Of a DNA stretch of 64,000 nt, positions 15,351 to 47,716 are shown piece by piece. Below the pieces are notes generated by a model that saw nothing but the letters and a program-made list of their open reading frames with translations, searched no databases and was not told the DNA's origin. Location of the stretch: the NCBI RefSeq assembly GCF_014395225.1, contig NZ_CP060723.1, forward strand, positions 3,720,001 through 3,784,000, given 5' to 3'. The position numbers were made by a program, and so were the translations under genes. The stretch's first letter is position 1, and the number at the start of each line of letters is the position of its first letter. Origin of the DNA: Pedobacter roseus (GTDB lineage: Bacteria > Bacteroidota > Bacteroidia > Sphingobacteriales > Sphingobacteriaceae).

Positions 15351-15396
15351 TAAATATATACAGATTGCAAGCTACCCCCATCCTGTACTATCCTGC
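15351..15396 (-). promoter_or_regulatory. Shared pectin-regulon promoter, copy 1 (FAS1-SusCD operon)
   Basis: The plus strand reads TCCTGTACTATCCTGC at 15381-15396, two TCCTG half-sites 10 bp apart in direct orientation. On the minus strand, 22 bp downstream, is TATATTTA (15351-15358), a match to the Bacteroidota -7 element TAnnTTTG except for the last base. The same site with the same 22-bp spacing occurs at 28674, 35242, 36855 and 47671. It drives the operon starting at 15171. It may be an activator site covering the -33 region; the regulator is not in the window. Confidence 0.72.
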
Positions 15397-18298: not shown

Positions 18299-18303
18299 GC
18301 TGA

Positions 18304-18612
18304 TTAATCTAGGTGAAATACCATTTCTAAAGGAAAACTTTTAGGTGAATTATCGGGATTGGTTTCCATAATATCAGCCATATAAGCCCACCATTTCTGC
18401 ACAATTTTGGTGCTACCCAAATCCTGTGATGAATTCCCGTTTTGCTGTTGAACGGCAAACAGGGTATTGGTTTCTTCGTCTAAAAAAATTGAATAATCGC
18501 TGATCCCATTTTCTTTGAGTAAAGCTGATAATTCAGGCCAAATTTGATCGTGACGGGATTTATATTCGGCTTCAAATCCTGGTTTAAGTTTCATTTTAAA
18601 TGCTATTTTCAT
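18304..18612 (-). CDS. rhaM: L-rhamnose mutarotase
   Basis: Small cytoplasmic protein of about 102 residues of the RhaM/YiiL family, which interconverts the alpha and beta anomers of L-rhamnose. The frame extends to 18663, but the start at 18612 ([12 protein letters not shown]) matches the family length and removes an N-terminal tail without homology. Conserved features are [12 protein letters not shown] near the N-terminus, containing the family's catalytic His, [14 protein letters not shown] in the middle and [11 protein letters not shown] near the C-terminus. There is no signal peptide, unlike the neighbouring enzymes. It is separated from GH31 upstream by a 1-kb repeat array and lies 5 bp before GH106. 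No other rhamnose catabolic genes are in the window. Confidence 0.93.
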
Positions 18613-18698
18613 TTTTGTTAATGGTTTGTTCCGTTTATGTTTTTGTTCCCACTGATTACGCAAAATACGCAGATTTTGTTTTCGGCGTAAAATAGAAA

Positions 18699-18838
18699 GG
18701 TCGTCATTCCCGCGCAGGCGGGAATCTTAAAGCTTATTGCATTACAATTATTCATAAGCTTCCCTTGTTTCAAAGGTATTCATGAGCACTCCGTGGTTCC
18801 CAATCGACCCGATAGCTATCGGGTTGGGAATGACGACC
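18699..18838. repeat. REP-like intergenic palindromic element
   Basis: The element is bounded by a perfect 13-bp inverted repeat, GGTCGTCATTCCC (18699-18711) and GGGAATGACGACC (18826-18838). It holds CGCGCAGGCGGGAATC at the left and the palindrome CCCGATAGCTATCGGG at 18808-18823. Related pieces occur at 28826, 44566 and 56072. It is a non-coding dispersed repeat; short frames crossing it are not genes. Confidence 0.75.
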
Positions 18839-18882
18839 GCCCCGCCCTAACTATCCGAAGAAGAATCTCTTGCCTATTAGTA

Positions 18883-19579
18883 CTAAGATTGCCATCTTAT
18901 CTTTCCTTTTGTGGGTTGGAAGAACCCTAGTTTCATCGCAAACAGTTTCTTCGCTGCCCTACCATAGACAGAATCCATTAGTGCGCTCGTTGTTGCGAGG
19001 AGGAACGACGAAGCAATCTTTCCTGCCAGCGATCCTTGCTAGAAAGATTGCTTCGTCGGCTGAAAAAGCCTTTCTCGCAATGACGATCACCCACACTAAG
19101 ATTCTCATCTTCCCTTTTGTGGGTTGGCAGAACCCTAGTTTCATCGCTAACAGATTCTTCGCTGCCCTACCATAGACAGAATCCATTAGTGCGGACGTCA
19201 TTGCGAGGAGGAACGACGAAGCAATCTTTCCTGCTAGCGATCCTTGCTAGAAAGATTGCTTCGTCGGCTGAAAAGCCTTTCTCGCAATGACGACCACCCA
19301 TACTAAGATTGTCATCTTGCCTTTTGTGGGTTGGAAGAACCCTAGTTTCATCGCTAACAGATTCTTCGCTGCCCTACCATAGACAGAATCCATTAGTGCG
19401 GTCGTCATTGCGAGGAGGAACGACGAAGCAATCTTTCCTGCCAGCGATCCTTGCTAGAAAGATTGCTTCGTCGGCTGAAAAAGCCTTTCTCGCAATGACG
19501 ACCACCCATACTAAGATTGTCATCTTTCCTTTTGTGGGTTGGAAAAACCCTAGTTTCATCGCTAAAAGATTCTTCGCTG
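18883..19579. repeat. Tandem array, unit 207-213 bp, three full copies and a partial
   Basis: Copies begin with CTAAGATTG(C/T)CATCT-like sequence at 18883, 19096, 19303 and 19511. Each full unit contains a perfect 16-bp inverted repeat, GACGAAGCAATCTTTC / GAAAGATTGCTTCGTC (19007-19022 and 19042-19057 in copy 1), flanked by TTGCGAG and CTCGCAA that extend the fold. Small open frames on both strands repeat with the unit and are by-products. The array splits GH31 from rhaM in an otherwise tightly packed operon. The downstream part, 19580-19612, ends the last partial copy with an unrelated GCGCTCAGAATGACA fragment. Confidence 0.9.
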
Positions 19580-19612
19580 CGCTCAGAATGACAAAACGCT
19601 TGCTAACCTATT

Positions 19613-28673: not shown

Positions 28674-28719
28674 CTATTATAAGGTTTAAAACAAACATGG
28701 GCAACCTGTAGTGTCCTGC
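28674..28719 (-). promoter_or_regulatory. Shared pectin-regulon promoter, copy 2 (GH2 operon)
   Basis: The plus strand carries ACCTGTAGTGTCCTGC at 28704-28719. The minus-strand -7 candidate TATAATAG is at 28674-28681, again 22 bp away, and 50 bp from the GH2 start. This is the weakest -7 match of the five to TAnnTTTG (TA, one T and the final G). Confidence 0.7.
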
Positions 28720-29112: not shown

Positions 29113-29904
29113 TTATTTCAAATAACTTTTCAGTTTACTCGTTTTCAATGCCTTTAAGCCCTCTACAACAGCTGCTGCGTTTACTTTTGCACCTTCTTCA
29201 TTGGTATGGGTATGGTCTTTTTCGGTAAAATATGTTTTCACCTGAGCAGCAGACAAACCTGCATATTTATCTTTAATCAATTGATTTAAGGGGATAAAAT
29301 CTACCTTTTCTGCCTGGGCAACCTCTTGCGCCCAACCGGCATAACTATCGTTAACCAACACCACCTGATCATCTTTAACTGGATTACGCGGAATGGAAGA
29401 GCAAACAATCGGGGTAGCGCCTTTTGCTTTAATATCATTAATAAATTTGCGCATGTACCAGCCGTAAGTATACACCACTTCCTGTTTTTTCTTAATGGGG
29501 TTATAGGTATCCTTACTTTCCATACCAATACCTTTAATTGTACCGCGGGCACGGGCGGTATCATCCAGCGGACTACTATCATTATGGCCAAACTGCATCA
29601 TTACAAAATCGCCTTTTTTTACTTTCGCTAAAACAGCATCCCAAAGGCCATTGGTTTGGAAAGTCCTGCTGCTTGTTCCGCCTAGGGCATCATTTTCGAC
29701 ATTAATTTTATCAGTATCGAAGAAATTCGCGATAAAACTACCCCAGCCCCATAAAGCGCCATCGCCTTTACCTTTGCCATTTTTAACGGTAGAATCGCCG
29801 ATGAGGAATAAAGTTGGCTTATCTTTTTGCTTTAGGATAATGCAGGAAGAAAAAGTGATAAAAGCGATTACAAGGATTGGATATAGGTATTTAGTTGATT
29901 TCAT
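29113..29904 (-). CDS. CE12 rhamnogalacturonan acetylesterase (SGNH hydrolase)
   Basis: GDSL/SGNH esterase of 263 residues that removes acetyl groups from galacturonate in rhamnogalacturonan-I. The N-terminus has a lipobox-like ITFSSC (Cys21), so it is probably a lipoprotein. Block I is LIGDSTV with catalytic Ser38; block II includes NDALGGTSSRTF; block III is MMQFGHND with the oxyanion-hole Asn; block V is EKDHTHTNEEG with the Asp-His pair. It has family-typical length. It is the last gene of the MG2-PL11-CE12-CE12 cluster and lies 88 bp after the second CE12 gene, with a strong hairpin between them, so expression may differ from the upstream genes. Confidence 0.92.
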   Translation of the reverse strand: MKSTKYLYPILVIAFITFSSCIILKQKDKPTLFLIGDSTVKNGKGKGDGALWGWGSFIANFFDTDKINVENDALGGTSSRTFQTNGLWDAVLAKVKKGDFVMMQFGHNDSSPLDDTARARGTIKGIGMESKDTYNPIKKKQEVVYTYGWYMRKFINDIKAKGATPIVCSSIPRNPVKDDQVVLVNDSYAGWAQEVAQAEKVDFIPLNQLIKDKYAGLSAAQVKTYFTEKDHTHTNEEGAKVNAAAVVEGLKALKTSKLKSYLK

Positions 29905-29992: not shown

Positions 29993-30760
29993 TTAAAGCA
30001 GGTAGTTTTTTAGTTTACAGTCTTTTAATTGTTTGATGCCTTCTACAACCGATTCGGCATTTAATTTTGCACCTTCGAGGTTGGTATGGGTATGATCTCC
30101 GGGGAAAAAAGTTTTTACTTTCCCGGGGCCCATGGCGTCGTATTTATCGGCAGTAATTTTATTGAGGTCGACAAAATAAGCGTTTTCCTGTTGTGCAACT
30201 TCGGCAGCCCATTTGCCAAAACTTTGATCGGCGCGAAGCACTTTGCCTTCTTTGAATTCGTTTCTTGGTATCATGGAAACAACAATGGGTGTTGCGCCTT
30301 TGGCTTTGGTTTCGCGGACAAATTTGCGGATGTACCAACCATAAGTATGCACCGTTTCTACTTTACCATCAGGCCAGGTTAATACTTTTGTTTCTTCTCC
30401 GGTTCCTTTTAAAACACCTCTTCTGCCTGCTTTTGTGGTGTCGGGTTCGCTGCCATCGTTATGGCCAAATTGCATGGTGACAAAATCGCCAGGTTTTAAG
30501 GTTTCCAGAACCTTGTCCCACCTGCCTTCTGAAAGAAATGTCCGGGTGCTTCTGCCGGCCATCGCATTATTTTCGACGTGGATTTTTGTGGTATCGAACA
30601 ATGCTGCAATAGGTGTTCCCCAGCCCCAGGTTTCTTTATTTGAATTCCTAACGGTTGAATCGCCAATGGTATGGAGGGCTGGTTTACCAGGCTTGATGAA
30701 AGCCGAGACCATGCTGATGATACCGATAACAGCCAGAAGTTTAAGTGATATTGATTTCAT
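29993..30760 (-). CDS. CE12 rhamnogalacturonan acetylesterase (SGNH hydrolase)
   Basis: SGNH esterase of 255 residues, paralogue of the neighbour at 29113 and clearly alignable with it throughout. A signal peptide covers about residues 1-22 (ISMVSAFIKPG) without a lipobox Cys, so unlike its paralogue it is probably soluble in the periplasm or secreted. The catalytic Ser35 lies in TIGDSTV, block II is NNAMAGRSTRTF, block III is TMQFGHND and the C-terminal Asp-His pair is in GDHTHTNLEG. It starts 36 bp after the PL11 stop. Two differently anchored copies suggest deacetylation both at the surface and inside the envelope (inference). Confidence 0.92.
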   Translation of the reverse strand: MKSISLKLLAVIGIISMVSAFIKPGKPALHTIGDSTVRNSNKETWGWGTPIAALFDTTKIHVENNAMAGRSTRTFLSEGRWDKVLETLKPGDFVTMQFGHNDGSEPDTTKAGRRGVLKGTGEETKVLTWPDGKVETVHTYGWYIRKFVRETKAKGATPIVVSMIPRNEFKEGKVLRADQSFGKWAAEVAQQENAYFVDLNKITADKYDAMGPGKVKTFFPGDHTHTNLEGAKLNAESVVEGIKQLKDCKLKNYLL

Positions 30761-30796: not shown

Positions 30797-32644
30797 CTAT
30801 TTACGGGGCTCTACAAGTATGATATTGGGTTTTGGTGCTTTTTTCATCCCATAACCGAAATAAAACCCGGTATGCGGTGGTTGGTTGTAACCATCATTTT
30901 GCCAGGCAATGCTTAAACGGTATTGTGGATCGTGCATTAAGGTATAATTCCGGTAATCGGTTGGGATGGTTGTGGTATAAATCCTTAAACTTTGATTGTC
31001 GTAGGCCCTCAAAATCAGTTCCTCCCGCCAATCACCAAAAATATCGGCGCTTAAAGCCGGGGTAGATTTTGTGCCATTATTGGAAACAGCGCCATTAGCC
31101 GTCAACAAGCGACCACCGTTATACTTATCGATGTGGTTTCCATCCAAAAGTTCACGGGAAAGATCGCCATCCCAATAAATCAGGAAATTTGTAGAACGGG
31201 GCTGTTCGCCGATTCTGTTTCCTTTGATATCAAACAAACCATTTGAGCCCGACCACCACATTTGTGCACCCATGCGGGTATTATCTATATTATCGGCCAC
31301 CCCTCTGCCCACATCTTCATCGTCTGATCCATGCCATAAAATTACTCCTGTTTTAGCATCATAAAGTGCAGCACCAGGGCCTTTCGTCCCTTCTTCAATT
31401 TCGTGTATGCCGAAAACCTCTAAACCAGGTCGCTCCGGATCGAGATCGGAAACGTGCAGGGCATCGCCATGCCTTAAACCTGTGGTATATAAACCTTTGC
31501 CATTATCATCCACACACATGGAGCCGTAAATAATTTCATCTTTCCCGTCACCATCTACATCGGCCACGCTTAAGTTGTGGTTGCCCATTCCGGAATAAGG
31601 GTTTTTACCATTTTTTGTATCGAAAACCCAGCGGGAAGTTAATTTTCCCCCTCTCCAATCCCAGGCAGCCAAAACCGTACGTCCATAATATCCGCGGCAC
31701 ATCACCACGCTGGGGTGTATCCCATCCAGATAAGCAATGCAGGCATTAAAACGATCTACCCTGTTGCCTGTGTTGTCGGTTTTACCATTTCCTCCGCTCC
31801 CTCCCCAGCCACTAATATCGCCTCTGGCCGGGATGTAATCTGTGGTAGCCAGGGCTTCTCCGGTTTTTCCGCTAAAAATGGTAAAAAACTCAGGACCATC
31901 TAATATTTTCCCGTTTTTGTTCCGATAATCCTTAGTCGAATCGCCAATTACTTTTCCTTTACCGTCTATTGTGCCATCAGCTGTTTTACAGGCAAATTCA
32001 GCAATTCCATCTCCATCTAAATCGTACACCATAAATTGGGTATAATGTGCCCCTTCCCTGATATTTTTGCCCAAATTAATTTCCCATAAAAAAGTGCCAT
32101 CAAGTTTATAGGCCTGAAAAATTGGTGGATCTGTAAGCCCGTTTGAAGAGTTATCGCGACCCCGGCCGGTTTGATGCAGGATGATTTCGTATTCGCCATC
32201 GCCATCAAGATCACCAACTGAAGCATCGTTCGGACTATAACCGGGTGGTGTACGCAAAGGAATAGTTAAATACTGTTGGATGGGGGTTTTTGCGGCTAAA
32301 ACAAAGGCTCTACTGGCCTCCTGTTCGTGGTTTTTGATAACCGGTTTTACAAAATAACTATTGTCTGCACTGGTATTTACACCAACATCGGTAAAATTTG
32401 TGCCTTTGGTCAATGGTGTCGGGTTTAATTTCTTTGGGCTTCCGCTACCCGTTTTACGGTAAAGGTTAAAAGCGATATCATCCGGTTCGGTGCCTAAAAT
32501 CCGCCAGCTTACAAAAACAGAATCTGCACCCTGTTTAACAGCTACCATGCCACGCCCTAATTTTTCCATTTGCCGCTGGGCGAAAGTGGTGATGGAACAA
32601 AAGCTGATCATTAACAGCAAAAAGTATTTTAAAGGTTTAATCAT
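30797..32644 (-). CDS. PL11 rhamnogalacturonan lyase
   Basis: Secreted polysaccharide lyase of 615 residues (YesW/YesX family, eight-bladed beta-propeller) that cleaves the Rha-alpha-1,4-GalA bond of the rhamnogalacturonan-I backbone by beta-elimination, giving the unsaturated products used by GH105. The signal peptide ends near TTFAQ (1-22). An N-terminal fibronectin-like region (AVKQGADSVFVSWRILGTEP) is followed by propeller blades carrying calcium-binding DxDGDG motifs: VGDLDGDGEYEI, YDLDGDGIAEF and ADVDGDGKDEI. MVAVKQG, ARGDISGWGGSGGNG and GNHNLSVADVDGDG are close to family consensus. It begins 8 bp after the stop of the MG2-like gene, indicating coupled expression. Confidence 0.95.
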   Translation of the reverse strand: MIKPLKYFLLLMISFCSITTFAQRQMEKLGRGMVAVKQGADSVFVSWRILGTEPDDIAFNLYRKTGSGSPKKLNPTPLTKGTNFTDVGVNTSADNSYFVKPVIKNHEQEASRAFVLAAKTPIQQYLTIPLRTPPGYSPNDASVGDLDGDGEYEIILHQTGRGRDNSSNGLTDPPIFQAYKLDGTFLWEINLGKNIREGAHYTQFMVYDLDGDGIAEFACKTADGTIDGKGKVIGDSTKDYRNKNGKILDGPEFFTIFSGKTGEALATTDYIPARGDISGWGGSGGNGKTDNTGNRVDRFNACIAYLDGIHPSVVMCRGYYGRTVLAAWDWRGGKLTSRWVFDTKNGKNPYSGMGNHNLSVADVDGDGKDEIIYGSMCVDDNGKGLYTTGLRHGDALHVSDLDPERPGLEVFGIHEIEEGTKGPGAALYDAKTGVILWHGSDDEDVGRGVADNIDNTRMGAQMWWSGSNGLFDIKGNRIGEQPRSTNFLIYWDGDLSRELLDGNHIDKYNGGRLLTANGAVSNNGTKSTPALSADIFGDWREELILRAYDNQSLRIYTTTIPTDYRNYTLMHDPQYRLSIAWQNDGYNQPPHTGFYFGYGMKKAPKPNIILVEPRK

Positions 32645-32652
32645 TTCGGATA

Positions 32653-35082
32653 TTATTGAACGGTATAGCTTGTTTTTGAGGATAAGGCTGCACCTTTTTG
32701 GGTAATGCCATCTGCCCTGATTACGATGTTTCCTTTGTTATCGCTATTGTAAAAGCTCACTTTAGCCTCCCCGTTTTCGTTGGTTTTTATTAATGGCGAC
32801 CAAAAAACAGTAGTGCGTAAATCTCTATTCGCGTTTGCAGGATTACTGTAATTGGGCGAATAAAAATCGCGGGCAGTGTAATATCCGGTAAGGTTAATGT
32901 TTAGCAGATTGAGGCTGGTACCCCTTAATGCACTGTCTTTTAAATTGAGGCTGATGACGTACACATCATTACCGCTGTTGTTCACCAGGTGCTGAACTTT
33001 TACCTGGTTAACCTGGTCCATGGTTAAACTGTAATAATCGAGGCGCTCGGCTACCAATTCTTCCCTGTTATTCACTTTAATCCGCGGACGGATTTTTTTA
33101 CCGTTTGAGATAAATGTGATGCCTTCATTCCCAATAGAATCGGCATCATCAACCGGTTGGGCACCACTTACTTTAGTGAGTAAAAAATGCTCGAGCCCTT
33201 TATAACTGTAATCGGCGTTTGTGATGTCGAATACCTGATCGGGATAACCAAAAGTCATCAGGGTTTGATCGAACATTTCGACATTTTTGCCTTTATTTGC
33301 TTTTACGTCTACATCATTTAAGGTTATGGAATCGCCAAACTTATAGGTGCGGTTATAATCCATGCGTTTGCTTATTTCAGCATCAATCTTTTTTGCAAAA
33401 TCCTGCAATCCGTTTTTAAACTGGATGGCAACCGGTTTTTCTACCGAATCAATCTGCAGCCACCCTCCTTTTTTTCCTTTTCCATCCTGAGAAGAGATTT
33501 TTATGGGCTGATTCCCGTACCATTTTAATCCGTCGAAAAAGTAGTGCCCGTTCTGATCGGTTTGCGTTGCAAATAGCTTATCGCCATTAAAACCCGAGCC
33601 AAACAGCGTAACATTCATATTGGGCAATGGTTTATTGGCCAGTTTCTCGCGCACCAGGCCTTTAATGCCTAATCCGGCCTCGGGCAGATATTTTATTTTG
33701 ATGGCACTATCTGCCAGTTTTTTCCATACATAATCCCTCCAGCCCTGTGTTAATAAAAGTAAATCAAGCTGTTTTAATCTGGCCGGATTATTATGATCGA
33801 AATATTGACCGGCATTTTTAATCTCGCCCTTAATTTCAGATTGGAGCAATAAATAGGATTCGATATTGGATCCATCGTCTGGGATCAGGCCATCTACTAC
33901 AGCCAACGATAAAGCCATTTTTGCAGGCTGGCCCATCAAATCGGTAGCTTTAATATTCAGTTCTACTTTTTCGCGGGTTTTGTAGCTCGTTTTACCTGGT
34001 GTTATGGTCAGTCTGTTTTTGCTTTCCCCGTTAATAAAAACCAGGCGCTCACAATTTGGCCTTCCGGCATCATCAATTAGGGTAAGTACCGAAATGCCCT
34101 GGGGAATATCTTTTGTTGGAATAGAAACTGAAATAGCCTGTTTTGTCATTTTAGCCGTGCCGCTGTACACATTGTCTCCTGCATGTTTGATGATAATGGA
34201 TAACGATTTCCCGTTAATTTCATTAAACAACGTTTCGTTTGCACTTATCGTTACTTTAAGCTGAAGGGAATCGCTGCTGAGGTGTAAGGCCAGGCCCTTT
34301 TTCAAAATCTGCGGTAATACCGCCGAAAACGGCTCCTTTCCGAATAATCCAACTACCTTATAACTTTCGTTTGCCTTAGGGTTAAAAGCGAAAATCCCCA
34401 TGCCTGCATCGGTACTTTGAAAGGTGGTAACGGTATCGCCTTTTGAAGAGATTACACTTCCGCTTGCTTTAAGGCCATTGCCCAGGTCATCGTTGGTTTT
34501 AAAAGCCACCAAACTATTTAATCCTTCTACCAATGAACCGCCCTCGGGGAAAAACATGATGGATTTCTGCTTACCCGGATTTGCAGCTCCCGGAGGTTTT
34601 TTGTCAGCATTGCGGGTGGCGTAAGTGGCATTTTCTTTTAAATGATTGGTGATGAAAATACTTTTCTGAAACACAAAGTTGGTTCCAAAATTACGCATCC
34701 AGTTGGTATAGGCCCTGATGTTGTACCAACCTGATGGAATGGTATCGGCTATTTTGAAGTCGCCTTTACCCAAACCATTATCTAAACGGATGGTTTTTTT
34801 ATCCAAAATGGCTGATTGAGGTGAAATCAATTCTACATATAAATTGTTGCTGGTTGAGGTTAAACTCGTGCTTTTTGCATTAACCAGATAGGCGCTAAAC
34901 CAAATCTCCTCACCAGCGCTGTAATAAGTGCGGTCGGTTTGCAGGTACGTTTTTTCGAAAAACAATTTTATGGTTTCAGGAGGGCTAGTCTGCGCTACAG
35001 GCCTTTGCTGGGCAAAGCTGTAGGCTGATAATCCTAAAATCAGGGTCAGAACAGATAATTTCTTAATTGTCATCGCGTTCAA
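32653..35082 (-). CDS. Macroglobulin (MG2)-like secreted protein with plug-like domain, no barrel
   Basis: Envelope protein of 809 residues; start at 35082 or 35073 (MTIKKLSVLTL). The signal peptide ends near SAYSFAQ. Residues about 40-135 form an MG2-type macroglobulin domain (KTYLQTDRTYYSAGEEIWF), followed by more macroglobulin-like sandwiches (about 172-400), LLLLTQGWRDYVWKKL at 440-455, a carboxypeptidase-regulatory-like domain (about 471-530) and a TonB-plug-like region (about 587-715). The C-terminus, RDLRTTVFWSPLIKTNENGE, resembles the alpha-2-macroglobulin domain. There is no thioester motif and no beta-barrel. It heads the operon with PL11. Function is unknown; a surface partner of a SusC transporter or a substrate-processing scaffold is inference. 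Confidence 0.8.
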   Translation of the reverse strand: MNAMTIKKLSVLTLILGLSAYSFAQQRPVAQTSPPETIKLFFEKTYLQTDRTYYSAGEEIWFSAYLVNAKSTSLTSTSNNLYVELISPQSAILDKKTIRLDNGLGKGDFKIADTIPSGWYNIRAYTNWMRNFGTNFVFQKSIFITNHLKENATYATRNADKKPPGAANPGKQKSIMFFPEGGSLVEGLNSLVAFKTNDDLGNGLKASGSVISSKGDTVTTFQSTDAGMGIFAFNPKANESYKVVGLFGKEPFSAVLPQILKKGLALHLSSDSLQLKVTISANETLFNEINGKSLSIIIKHAGDNVYSGTAKMTKQAISVSIPTKDIPQGISVLTLIDDAGRPNCERLVFINGESKNRLTITPGKTSYKTREKVELNIKATDLMGQPAKMALSLAVVDGLIPDDGSNIESYLLLQSEIKGEIKNAGQYFDHNNPARLKQLDLLLLTQGWRDYVWKKLADSAIKIKYLPEAGLGIKGLVREKLANKPLPNMNVTLFGSGFNGDKLFATQTDQNGHYFFDGLKWYGNQPIKISSQDGKGKKGGWLQIDSVEKPVAIQFKNGLQDFAKKIDAEISKRMDYNRTYKFGDSITLNDVDVKANKGKNVEMFDQTLMTFGYPDQVFDITNADYSYKGLEHFLLTKVSGAQPVDDADSIGNEGITFISNGKKIRPRIKVNNREELVAERLDYYSLTMDQVNQVKVQHLVNNSGNDVYVISLNLKDSALRGTSLNLLNINLTGYYTARDFYSPNYSNPANANRDLRTTVFWSPLIKTNENGEAKVSFYNSDNKGNIVIRADGITQKGAALSSKTSYTVQ

Positions 35083-35241: not shown

Positions 35242-35287
35242 CCAATTTAGAGAGTAAATTTTAAACCCGCGTCCTGTAGTATCCTGC
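35242..35287 (-). promoter_or_regulatory. Shared pectin-regulon promoter, copy 3 (MG2-PL11 operon)
   Basis: TCCTGTAGTATCCTGC at 35272-35287 on the plus strand, with minus-strand -7 element TAAATTGG at 35242-35249, again 22 bp apart. The leader to the MG2-like start is about 160 nt. Ten bases beyond the site is GTTAATATACTATAGT (35297-35312), repeated in copy 4. Confidence 0.75.
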
Positions 35288-36854: not shown

Positions 36855-36900
36855 CTAACTTAGCAACTAATCCGGCAATAAGCATCCTGTGGTATCCTGT
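36855..36900 (-). promoter_or_regulatory. Shared pectin-regulon promoter, copy 4 (GH28)
   Basis: TCCTGTGGTATCCTGT at 36885-36900 on the plus strand, with minus-strand -7 element TAAGTTAG at 36855-36862, 22 bp apart and 63 bp from the GH28 start. Eleven bases beyond is GTTAATATGCTATAGT (36911-36926), nearly identical to the box upstream of copy 3. The site points at GH28, but it lies in the intergenic region shared with the divergent GH51 operon. Confidence 0.73.
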
Positions 36901-44879: not shown

Positions 44880-46207
44880 TTAATTCCCATCTGGTTTAAC
44901 CAAACTACTTTTAGGACTTTCCGGCCATTTCCAAGCATTCGGATCATCAGGTTTTGCAGGATTAAAATCGGGCAGATCGTTAACCAGGTACTGAGCAATG
45001 CCCAGTTTTTGCGATTTGATGCCTAAGATGATGCATTGCGCAATTTCATAAGCGCCGTAAGGGTTAAAGTGCGTATTATCGGCCAAAGGTTTATCCTGCC
45101 CCGGGTAGCTATTTGCCGGATAATGTACAAAAGCTTTGATCGAATTTTGTTCTCCCAAAGCATTAAACAGTTCGGTTGTCATGGCATTAAGATCAATTAA
45201 AGCTACATTTTCGTCCGCAGCAACTTTTCTTGCCGCTTCAGGAAAATCGCCCAGGGAGTTTTGTATTTTACCATCGGCACCAAAAGACCGCCTGCTGGTT
45301 GAAGTTACCACCACCGGAATTCCACCTTTTTTCTTTACCTCAGTTATAAATGTTTTCAAGCGCTCCGTGTACGATTTATATGCACCATCATTAGGTCCCT
45401 TCTCTTTCTGATCATTGTGCCCAAATTCAATAAATAAATAATCGCCGGGCTTCATTACACTCAATACTTTAGCTAACCGTTTACTGCCTAAAAATGAGCC
45501 AAGCGTTAAGCCCGATTCTGCATGGTTGGCTATCGCTACGCCTGGTTTAAAAAACCGGGGATCATCTGTCCCCATGATGCCCATGGCTCATCGTCCTGGT
45601 TAACCACTGTTGAGTTCCCCGCTAAAAATACCGTTATCTGATCCTTAACCTGCTCAATTTCCATGGCCGCTAATGCCGTATTCTGATCAAATTCGAGTGT
45701 AAGTTTATCATCCCAATCAAGTTTTGTTAATTCGCGTGGTTTTAATGTCACCACCTGTCCACCGCTGATATTTCTGTTTTTAATATTGACAATAAAAGTT
45801 CTGGTGATCAACTCGCCAGCTTTTGTTTTAACGTTTTCGAGCATCAAGCGGCGCGATTCGGCTTTAACAGTTGTTACAGCAGCAGCTTTCGGATCGCCTA
45901 AGGTTAAGGTGATTTTATAATTTCCTTCAGGTACGGCAACAGAAAAGTAAAATGGCCTGGTACTTTTAACCAGATCGGCAGTGAGTGCATTTTTACCGCC
46001 ATAATCAACAGCTTCTACTTTTGTATCAAAATCAAATCCATATTTCTGATTACCGGAAAAACTTGTTTCGGGTAGGATCTGAATATAATCCTTAGCTACT
46101 TTTCCCGGGCCAAAATCAAATTTATAGGCCAGTTTCTGTTGGGCAGAACCTTCATTATAAAAGAACACAGCTAATGTGCTTAATAAAAATATCCTTTTGA
46201 TTGTCAT
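44880..46207 (-). pseudogene. Frameshifted CE12-type acetylesterase with N-terminal beta-sandwich
   Basis: Two overlapping frames encode one esterase. The upstream frame starts at 46207 with a signal peptide (ending EGSAQ), a galactose-binding-like sandwich (YKFDFGPGKVAKDY, about 25-165) and the SGNH start VFLAGNSTVV, then ends at 45536 after WASWGQMIPGFLNQA. The downstream frame continues the family consensus RFFKPGVAIANHAESG, then FIEFGHNDQ and DNTHFNPYG with the Asp-His pair. One missing base in the CCCC run (plus-strand GGGG 45557-45560) would join them as MIPRFFKPG. It follows GH28 by 40 bp in one operon. A true mutation, a sequencing error or frameshifting at TTTAAAC (45545-45551) are alternatives. 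Confidence 0.85.
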
Positions 46208-47670: not shown

Positions 47671-47716
47671 CAAATATGCATATTCTATTTTGGCAATCCA
47701 TCCTGTAGTCACCTGC
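47671..47716 (-). promoter_or_regulatory. Shared pectin-regulon promoter, copy 5 (GH28-CE12 operon)
   Basis: TCCTGTAGTCACCTGC at 47701-47716 on the plus strand, with minus-strand CATATTTG at 47671-47678 (TAnnTTTG with only the first T changed). The spacing is 22 bp, as in the other four copies, and the -7 element is 55 bp from the GH28 start. Confidence 0.73.

Follow-up and report, generated by a model that had tools for sequence, protein, structure and literature searches.

In the TonB-dependent transporters known to us, the plug always lies in the same chain as its barrel. SusC transporters such as BT1763 and BT2264 carry an NTE, a Ton box and a plug in this order, the Ton box of BT1763 being given as DEVVVTG in PMC7782687. 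Macroglobulins form a separate group, in which the bacterial alpha-2-macroglobulins (A2Ms) include E. coli ECAM and Salmonella A2M; PMC4498604 places the bait region of E. coli A2M within MG8, which corresponds to MG6 of the eukaryotic count. Here we describe a protein from Pedobacter roseus, termed MGP, that has features of both. MGP shares with the bacterial A2Ms a ring of MG domains equivalent to MG2 to MG6 (Z about 20) and has an insert in the MG domain where they carry the bait region, but it lacks the thioester, TED, CUB and receptor domain, and its insert is a cassette of NTE, Ton-box-like segment and plug. The order of these modules is that of SusC transporters, from which MGP differs in having no barrel, in carrying the modules inside a macroglobulin and in the degenerate sequence of its plug. 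A search of titles and abstract beginnings in the open-licence PMC literature, which leaves out preprints and most subscription journals, returned no macroglobulin with a TonB plug and no role for the MGP family, and the available portion of a BAM-complex paper (PMC12611786) names no macroglobulin.

The MGP gene and its pectin locus

MGP is encoded in a large pectin/RG-I locus within the window, i.e. the whole 64,000-nucleotide stretch of contig NZ_CP060723.1 (positions 3,720,001 to 3,784,000) that was analysed. The locus encodes GH28, GH51, GH97, GH43, GH106, GH105/88, GH115, GH127 and GH35 enzymes along with several SusC/SusD pairs. The reading frame at 32653-35082 (-) is open and gives the 809 residues of the initial annotation when counted from a TTG at 35082; the ATG at 35073, three codons further in, is a better fit to ortholog starts and the more likely start, so that the TTG was dropped and the gene is taken as 32653-35073 (-), stop included, encoding 806 aa. 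The gene for a PL11 rhamnogalacturonan lyase (30797-32644, (-); Pfam RGL11_C 2e-212) lies 8 bp downstream, the gap at 32645-32652 being as first described, and two GDSL esterase genes (29993-30760 and 29113-29904, both (-)) continue the same strand run. They are followed by a 489-bp gap with its own operator copy, then by GH2 and further enzymes. The placement of MGP at the head of its operon holds in the window and in 13 of 27 other Pedobacter genomes, and a GH95 gene precedes MGP in 11 of the 27.

Comparison of the intergenic regions revealed a single shared element, GCAGGATACTACAGGATG, in which CAGGA recurs as a direct repeat at a period of 10 bp. This operator had five intergenic matches in the window at ≤3 mismatches against 0.03 expected, and a scan of the whole 6.33-Mb genome at ≤2 mismatches returned exactly the same five, with none for the reversed control; the shared operator proposed for MGP is thus borne out as a real predicted element. 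The copy upstream of MGP, GCAGGATACTACAGGACG (35270-35287, (-)), lies 197 bp upstream of the ATG. The other four, also (-), are found between GH28 and a divergent GH51 operon (36883-36900) and upstream of GH2 (28702-28719), a second GH28 (47699-47716) and a fasciclin/SusCD operon (15379-15396). As read from positions, the operator precedes the gene run that includes MGP in 22 of the 27 other Pedobacter genomes, and in Pelobium (L104) it occurs with three mismatches between SusC and a divergent MGP gene. A hybrid two-component regulator of 1348 aa with an AraC-type domain, encoded just right of the window (L196:10831-14877), is a candidate reader of the element.

Inheritance of MGP was examined in 119 Pedobacter genomes at an ortholog cut-off of E<=1e-100. 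MGP was present in 28 and PL11 in 38, with PL11 found in 27 of the 28 MGP carriers vs 11 of the 91 non-carriers (Fisher p 7e-17) and MGP absent from 11 of the 38 PL11 genomes. The sole carrier without PL11 (G035) is an assembly that is 81% complete, with MGP on a 5.7-kb contig. In the 27 other genomes the gene next to MGP encoded PL11 in 20 cases and a sulfatase in seven, and PL11 lay within the same-strand run of MGP in 24; in one genome (G040) the PL11 gene has an in-frame stop. Some more distant relatives also occur in pectin contexts. That of Pedobacter puniceum (L094, 40%) neighbours PL11, that of L093 (41%) lies with SusCD, GH51 and GH127, that of Pelobium (L104, 33%) adjoins SusCD and a PL4-type rhamnogalacturonan lyase, and those of two Flavobacterium (L118 and L123, about 30%) have PL11 nearby; others (L089, L095, L101-L103; 31-48%) lie outside pectin loci. 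The co-inheritance with PL11 argues that MGP belongs to RG-I use, and together with the predicted operator it amounts to a conserved linkage with RG-I enzymes, so that the neighbourhood is PL11-linked rather than unrelated to polysaccharide use.

The N-terminus of MGP comprises a hydrophobic helix and a cleavage-like site (..SFAQQ) and has no lipobox in the window protein, a loose lipobox pattern being matched by two of 29 orthologs. As MGP has no lipobox, no barrel and no known sorting tail, it is probably periplasmic and may act on the inner side of the outer membrane.

Some further features of these loci were recorded. The sulfatase genes next to MGP (L044, L059, L060, L062, L063, L064 and L065) start 2-92 bp downstream of it, and 2-3 bp downstream in five; we know of no sulfation of RG-I. 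In the window, an esterase gene at 44880-46207 (-) is broken by a frameshift or a sequencing error into two frames of 234 and 223 aa that overlap, its counterpart in L046 being a single 459-aa ORF. Ahead of GH106, the region 18299-19612 contains three repeats, nearly identical to one another and each about 200-270 bp long, with hairpin-type elements (CGTCATTCCCGCGCAGGCGGGAATC) that are common to other intergenic regions.

A shortened macroglobulin with SusC modules at the bait position

The MGP family was detected at a strict cut-off in 58 of 296 sampled Bacteroidota genomes. The family alignment comprised the window protein and 57 of 69 MGP ORFs, leaving out fragments, near-duplicates and one X-containing ORF, and an AlphaFold2 model of MGP was obtained from these 58 sequences (mean pLDDT 82.5, pTM 0.73). 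When compared using VIA-align, macroglobulins filled all of the first 45-47 rows, with Z falling from 20.6 to 17.1 over the first 45. Specifically, residues 36-806 of the model matched residues 123-826 of C3 (414 aligned, Z 20.3), which by C3 numbering corresponds to MG2 through the last strands of MG6, and residues 384-1018 of E. coli A2M (Z 20.2). VIA ranks are discriminating here and Foldseek E-values alone are not, since long Ig-like strings in viral structures give similar E-values at a TM of about 0.1. In Pfam, MG2 scored above cut-off (6.8e-11), and a carboxypeptidase-like domain (1.4e-5) and the A2M bait-region family (0.0014) fell below it. The MG sandwiches, MG2 included, and their C3/A2M arrangement place MGP in the macroglobulin superfamily.

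The model contains four MG sandwiches, all encoded on the (-) strand: MG2 (residues 36-145; 34639-34968), supported by Pfam and by the fold; an MG4-equivalent (167-261; 34291-34575), assigned by profile; an MG5-equivalent (262-351; 34021-34290), with the A2M_BRD match over 273-397; and an interrupted MG6. Profile alignment with full-length relatives showed that MG3 is missing between the first two. MG6 consists of three strands at 354-394 and five at 723-805, separated by some 330 residues; its first half, placed by model and fold, covers residues 352-398 (33880-34020) and its second half, also placed by profile, residues 719-806 (32656-32919). MGP is therefore a shortened macroglobulin made up of MG2, MG4, MG5 and MG6 without MG1, MG3, MG7, CUB, TED or receptor domain. 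The C-x-x-Q thioester motif is absent from its sequence, which has a single Cys; there is no TED and no C-x-E-Q, the chain stopping at MG6; and no 22-stranded outer-membrane barrel is present in the model. No disordered bait region occurs inside MG6, where folded NTE and plug modules are found at that position.

The insert in MG6, at the bait position, comprises the N-terminal modules of SusC in SusC order, i.e. NTE, Ton-box-like segment and plug. It begins with a helical segment (residues 399-460; 33694-33879, (-)) that bears the family signature LDLLLLTQGWR and is the best-conserved part across the MGP family. It is followed by the carboxypeptidase-regulatory-like domain (461-545; 33439-33693, (-)), which corresponds to the SusC NTE both in Pfam and in the family profile (95.3%, E 2.3e-8). 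The Ton-box-like segment ITLNDVDVKA (583-592; 33298-33327, (-)) lies in a low-confidence linker and aligns with LDEVVVVGYG of a full-length relative. The last module, with a TonB-plug fold and a degenerate sequence (596-718; 32920-33288, (-)), matched the SusC plug in the family profile with 95.3% (E 2.4e-8), whereas barrel and A2M each reached 0.1% and NTE 9.9%. An alignment of plug regions was built from 44 of 56 after removal of short sequences and of one near-duplicate. Pfam Plug was found in four of 58 family members and not in MGP itself, and Pfam and NCBIfam, which both miss this plug, were discarded as a means of finding it on their own.

Modelled in isolation, the plug domain (pLDDT 80.2) matched nothing but TonB-dependent transporters in VIA rows 1-21, with Z of 7.3, 6.5 and 6.4 for the best, the first non-transporter rows appearing at Z 3.4, and Foldseek ranked TbpA first (prob 0.90, E 0.1) and PiuD second (prob 0.80, E 0.18). 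A profile of the 29 orthologs alone showed no match to the SusC plug (0.5%, with 30 shuffled controls reaching up to 1.2%), which points to sequence drift in the PL11-clade plug, and the plug hallmarks YG[SAG] and [NG]GV[IVL] are missing in 29 of 29 PL11-clade orthologs. Plug homology in MGP thus rests on fold and intermediates; the plug fold itself is established at the level of the model, and conservation of plug function, judged from the sequence, is doubtful. At the Ton-box position, [DE][VI]x[IV] is found in 28 of 29 aligned orthologs, and the segment may bind TonB. Family-wide conservation of the segment was 0.54, compared with 0.24, 0.30 and 0.31 for the other three low-confidence stretches and 0.41 for the plug; within the 29 orthologs it was 0.68, above the other disordered stretches and below the protein mean of 0.75.

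The initial annotation, made from the sequence alone, had described MG2-like sandwiches, a carboxypeptidase-regulatory-like domain, a TonB-plug-like region and an A2M-like C-terminal segment, with neither thioester nor barrel. These assignments agree with the Pfam, profile and fold results above, the C-terminal segment now being recognised as the second half of MG6, and the fold comparison that could have shown no similarity to MG2 or plug found both.

Plug-bearing macroglobulins and plug-less barrels in other Bacteroidota

A search of the phylum identified longer members, L170, L171 and L172 (1506-1524 aa), which are complete macroglobulins with MG2, A2M and TED domains, a receptor or MG10 domain, and the thioester GC.EQ. 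Pfam Plug was detected in all three (3e-16, 1.4e-18 and 2.5e-14, respectively), and in L171 the sequence LDEVVVVGYG is followed by a textbook plug. A profile of 58 MGP family members aligned with these full-length A2Ms with prob 100 and E 5.5e-96. The alignment was colinear over MGP 36-806, its whole mature length, with plug and Ton box in place and ITLNDVDVKA falling on the Ton box. Unlike MGP, the full-length proteins retain the thioester and the TED, have a Ton box and plug of canonical sequence and a barrel 3-6 bp upstream, and show no recognised CAZyme neighbour in their annotated flanks.

The gene directly upstream in L170-L172 encodes a SusC-like protein of 919-951 aa with no Plug match and, in two of the three, an NTE match; in the alignment of these plug-less barrels the NTE passes straight into the barrel. 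When all ORFs of the full-length set were scored with plug, barrel and TED profiles, nine of ten plug-bearing macroglobulins had a plug-less barrel ORF (913-951 aa) on the same strand 3-6 bp upstream, vs none of 14 macroglobulins without a plug, the upstream side of one of these being unseen (Fisher 8e-6). The effective number is smaller, since the nine pairs represent four genera and a single genus accounts for six. In this set, 13 of 49 TED-only matches were taken, and the unseen upstream neighbour is that of L195, which starts 278 bp from the contig start. The nine operons are L170:1770-9065, L171:1720-9155, L172:3660-10944 and those of L176 and L178-L182. The plug-bearing A2M without a barrel (L177) is on a 7.2-kb contig, its upstream ORF being a 284-aa non-barrel protein. 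The plug-less-barrel profile was built without six of the nine barrels, and no Pfam Plug was found in the six plug-less barrels checked. From the gene order and the missing parts, these data suggest that such plugs may belong to separate plug-less membrane channels, being supplied in trans.

OMP_b-brl_3 barrels beside two MGP relatives (L110 and L116) were also considered and were rejected as support for a split arrangement because they have their own plugs. Further plugs outside a barrel were observed upstream of the pairs: L170:3-1706 encodes a plug with a von Willebrand A domain and a T9SS sorting tail, and the 156-aa product of L171:1123-1593, directly upstream of the plug-less barrel, looks secreted and contains two plug-like stretches (Pfam Plug 1.6e-9). 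In L171 the pair has an ECF sigma gene as a neighbour, and in L172 such a gene is divergent from it.

Possible roles in RG-I use and in the wider family

In the full-length relatives, the plug of the macroglobulin would close the separate barrel, and TonB would grip the Ton box on the macroglobulin chain and pull the macroglobulin. The short PL11-linked form would then be a descendant specialised for PULs, in which the ring and the TonB-responsive cassette are retained and a dedicated barrel is absent. Taken as a whole, the proposal that Bacteroidota have split TonB-dependent transporters, with plug and Ton box at the macroglobulin bait position and TonB pulling, and that MGP is their barrel-less RG-I descendant, is speculative but worth entertaining. 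If true, a macroglobulin with a Ton box and plug beside a plug-less barrel would be a second kind of target for TonB force, plug-in-trans gating would become directly testable, and, if proven, the arrangement would go beyond a variant of a known system. The present results also offer a structural reading for a widespread Bacteroidota family, one branch of which is tied to rhamnogalacturonan use.

For MGP itself, our working proposal, plausible though tentative, is that of a TonB-responsive periplasmic adaptor for RG-I uptake, which might assist RG-I oligosaccharides, or their enzymes in the periplasm, where transport takes place. We infer this role indirectly, since the plug is degenerate, the operon holds no barrel and the four SusC-type barrels of the locus each have their own plug. 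The initial annotation had suggested that a plug outside a barrel could dock to a SusC channel of the window. The general idea that such a plug can serve a barrel gains indirect support from the relatives, but docking to the window's SusCs is disfavoured by their own plugs, by the lost hallmarks of the PL11-clade plug and by the absence of a plug-less barrel beside PL11-linked MGP in the 27 Pedobacter loci and the window.

A possible if rather doubtful alternative is that the plug is a relic binding surface and that MGP is a periplasmic scaffold or chaperone for PL11, the sulfatase or the esterases, acting without TonB or a channel. Such a role would be consistent with the degenerate plug of the PL11 clade, with the missing barrel partner in the 27 loci, with enzymes as nearest neighbours (PL11 in 20 of 27, sulfatase in seven) and with the helical TQGWR segment being the best-conserved part of the family; it sits less well with the intact order of the cassette and with the pairing of barrels with those relatives that have a canonical plug. 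The adaptor is favoured over a pure scaffold because 28 of 29 orthologs retain the Ton-box-like segment, which family-wide is the best conserved of the low-confidence stretches and better kept than the plug.

A role as a spare stopper or gate, in which the plug of MGP would enter a SusC barrel of the locus once the channel's own plug had been pulled out, is unlikely: PMC7782687 reports that the plug of Bt1763 can be displaced from its SusC barrel in vitro, and MGP and the SusCD operon have an operator in common, but all four SusCs of the locus come with a plug and that of MGP is without the hallmarks. A protease trap protecting the periplasm during pectin degradation, as the macroglobulin fold and the inhibitor role proposed for bacterial A2Ms in PMC4498604 might suggest, is highly improbable and was rejected, since MGP has no thioester, TED or bait region and the genome encodes two other A2Ms with thioester motifs, and MGP is moreover inherited with PL11 behind the operator predicted to regulate RG-I genes. 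The earlier preference for rhamnogalacturonan handling over protease defence is upheld by the PL11 co-occurrence, the operator and the missing thioester, and the two other A2Ms also count in its favour.

Beyond the PL11-linked branch, the P. roseus genome encodes three further family copies (L036, L037 and L038). These TED-less paralogs belong to the MGP family, with 26-29% identity, but two of them are about 100 aa longer, and all three are orphans whose neighbours are housekeeping genes, with no CAZymes, which argues that the role of the family is not glycan-specific. A conserved non-PUL context was also seen in two classes for the distant relatives of L095 and L101-L103, which lie beside glycogen synthase-like genes, named from N-terminal sequence alone. 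Two MGP genes occur in tandem in L060 (6557-11414), with 1 bp between them, and tandem pairs are also present in L089 and L092.
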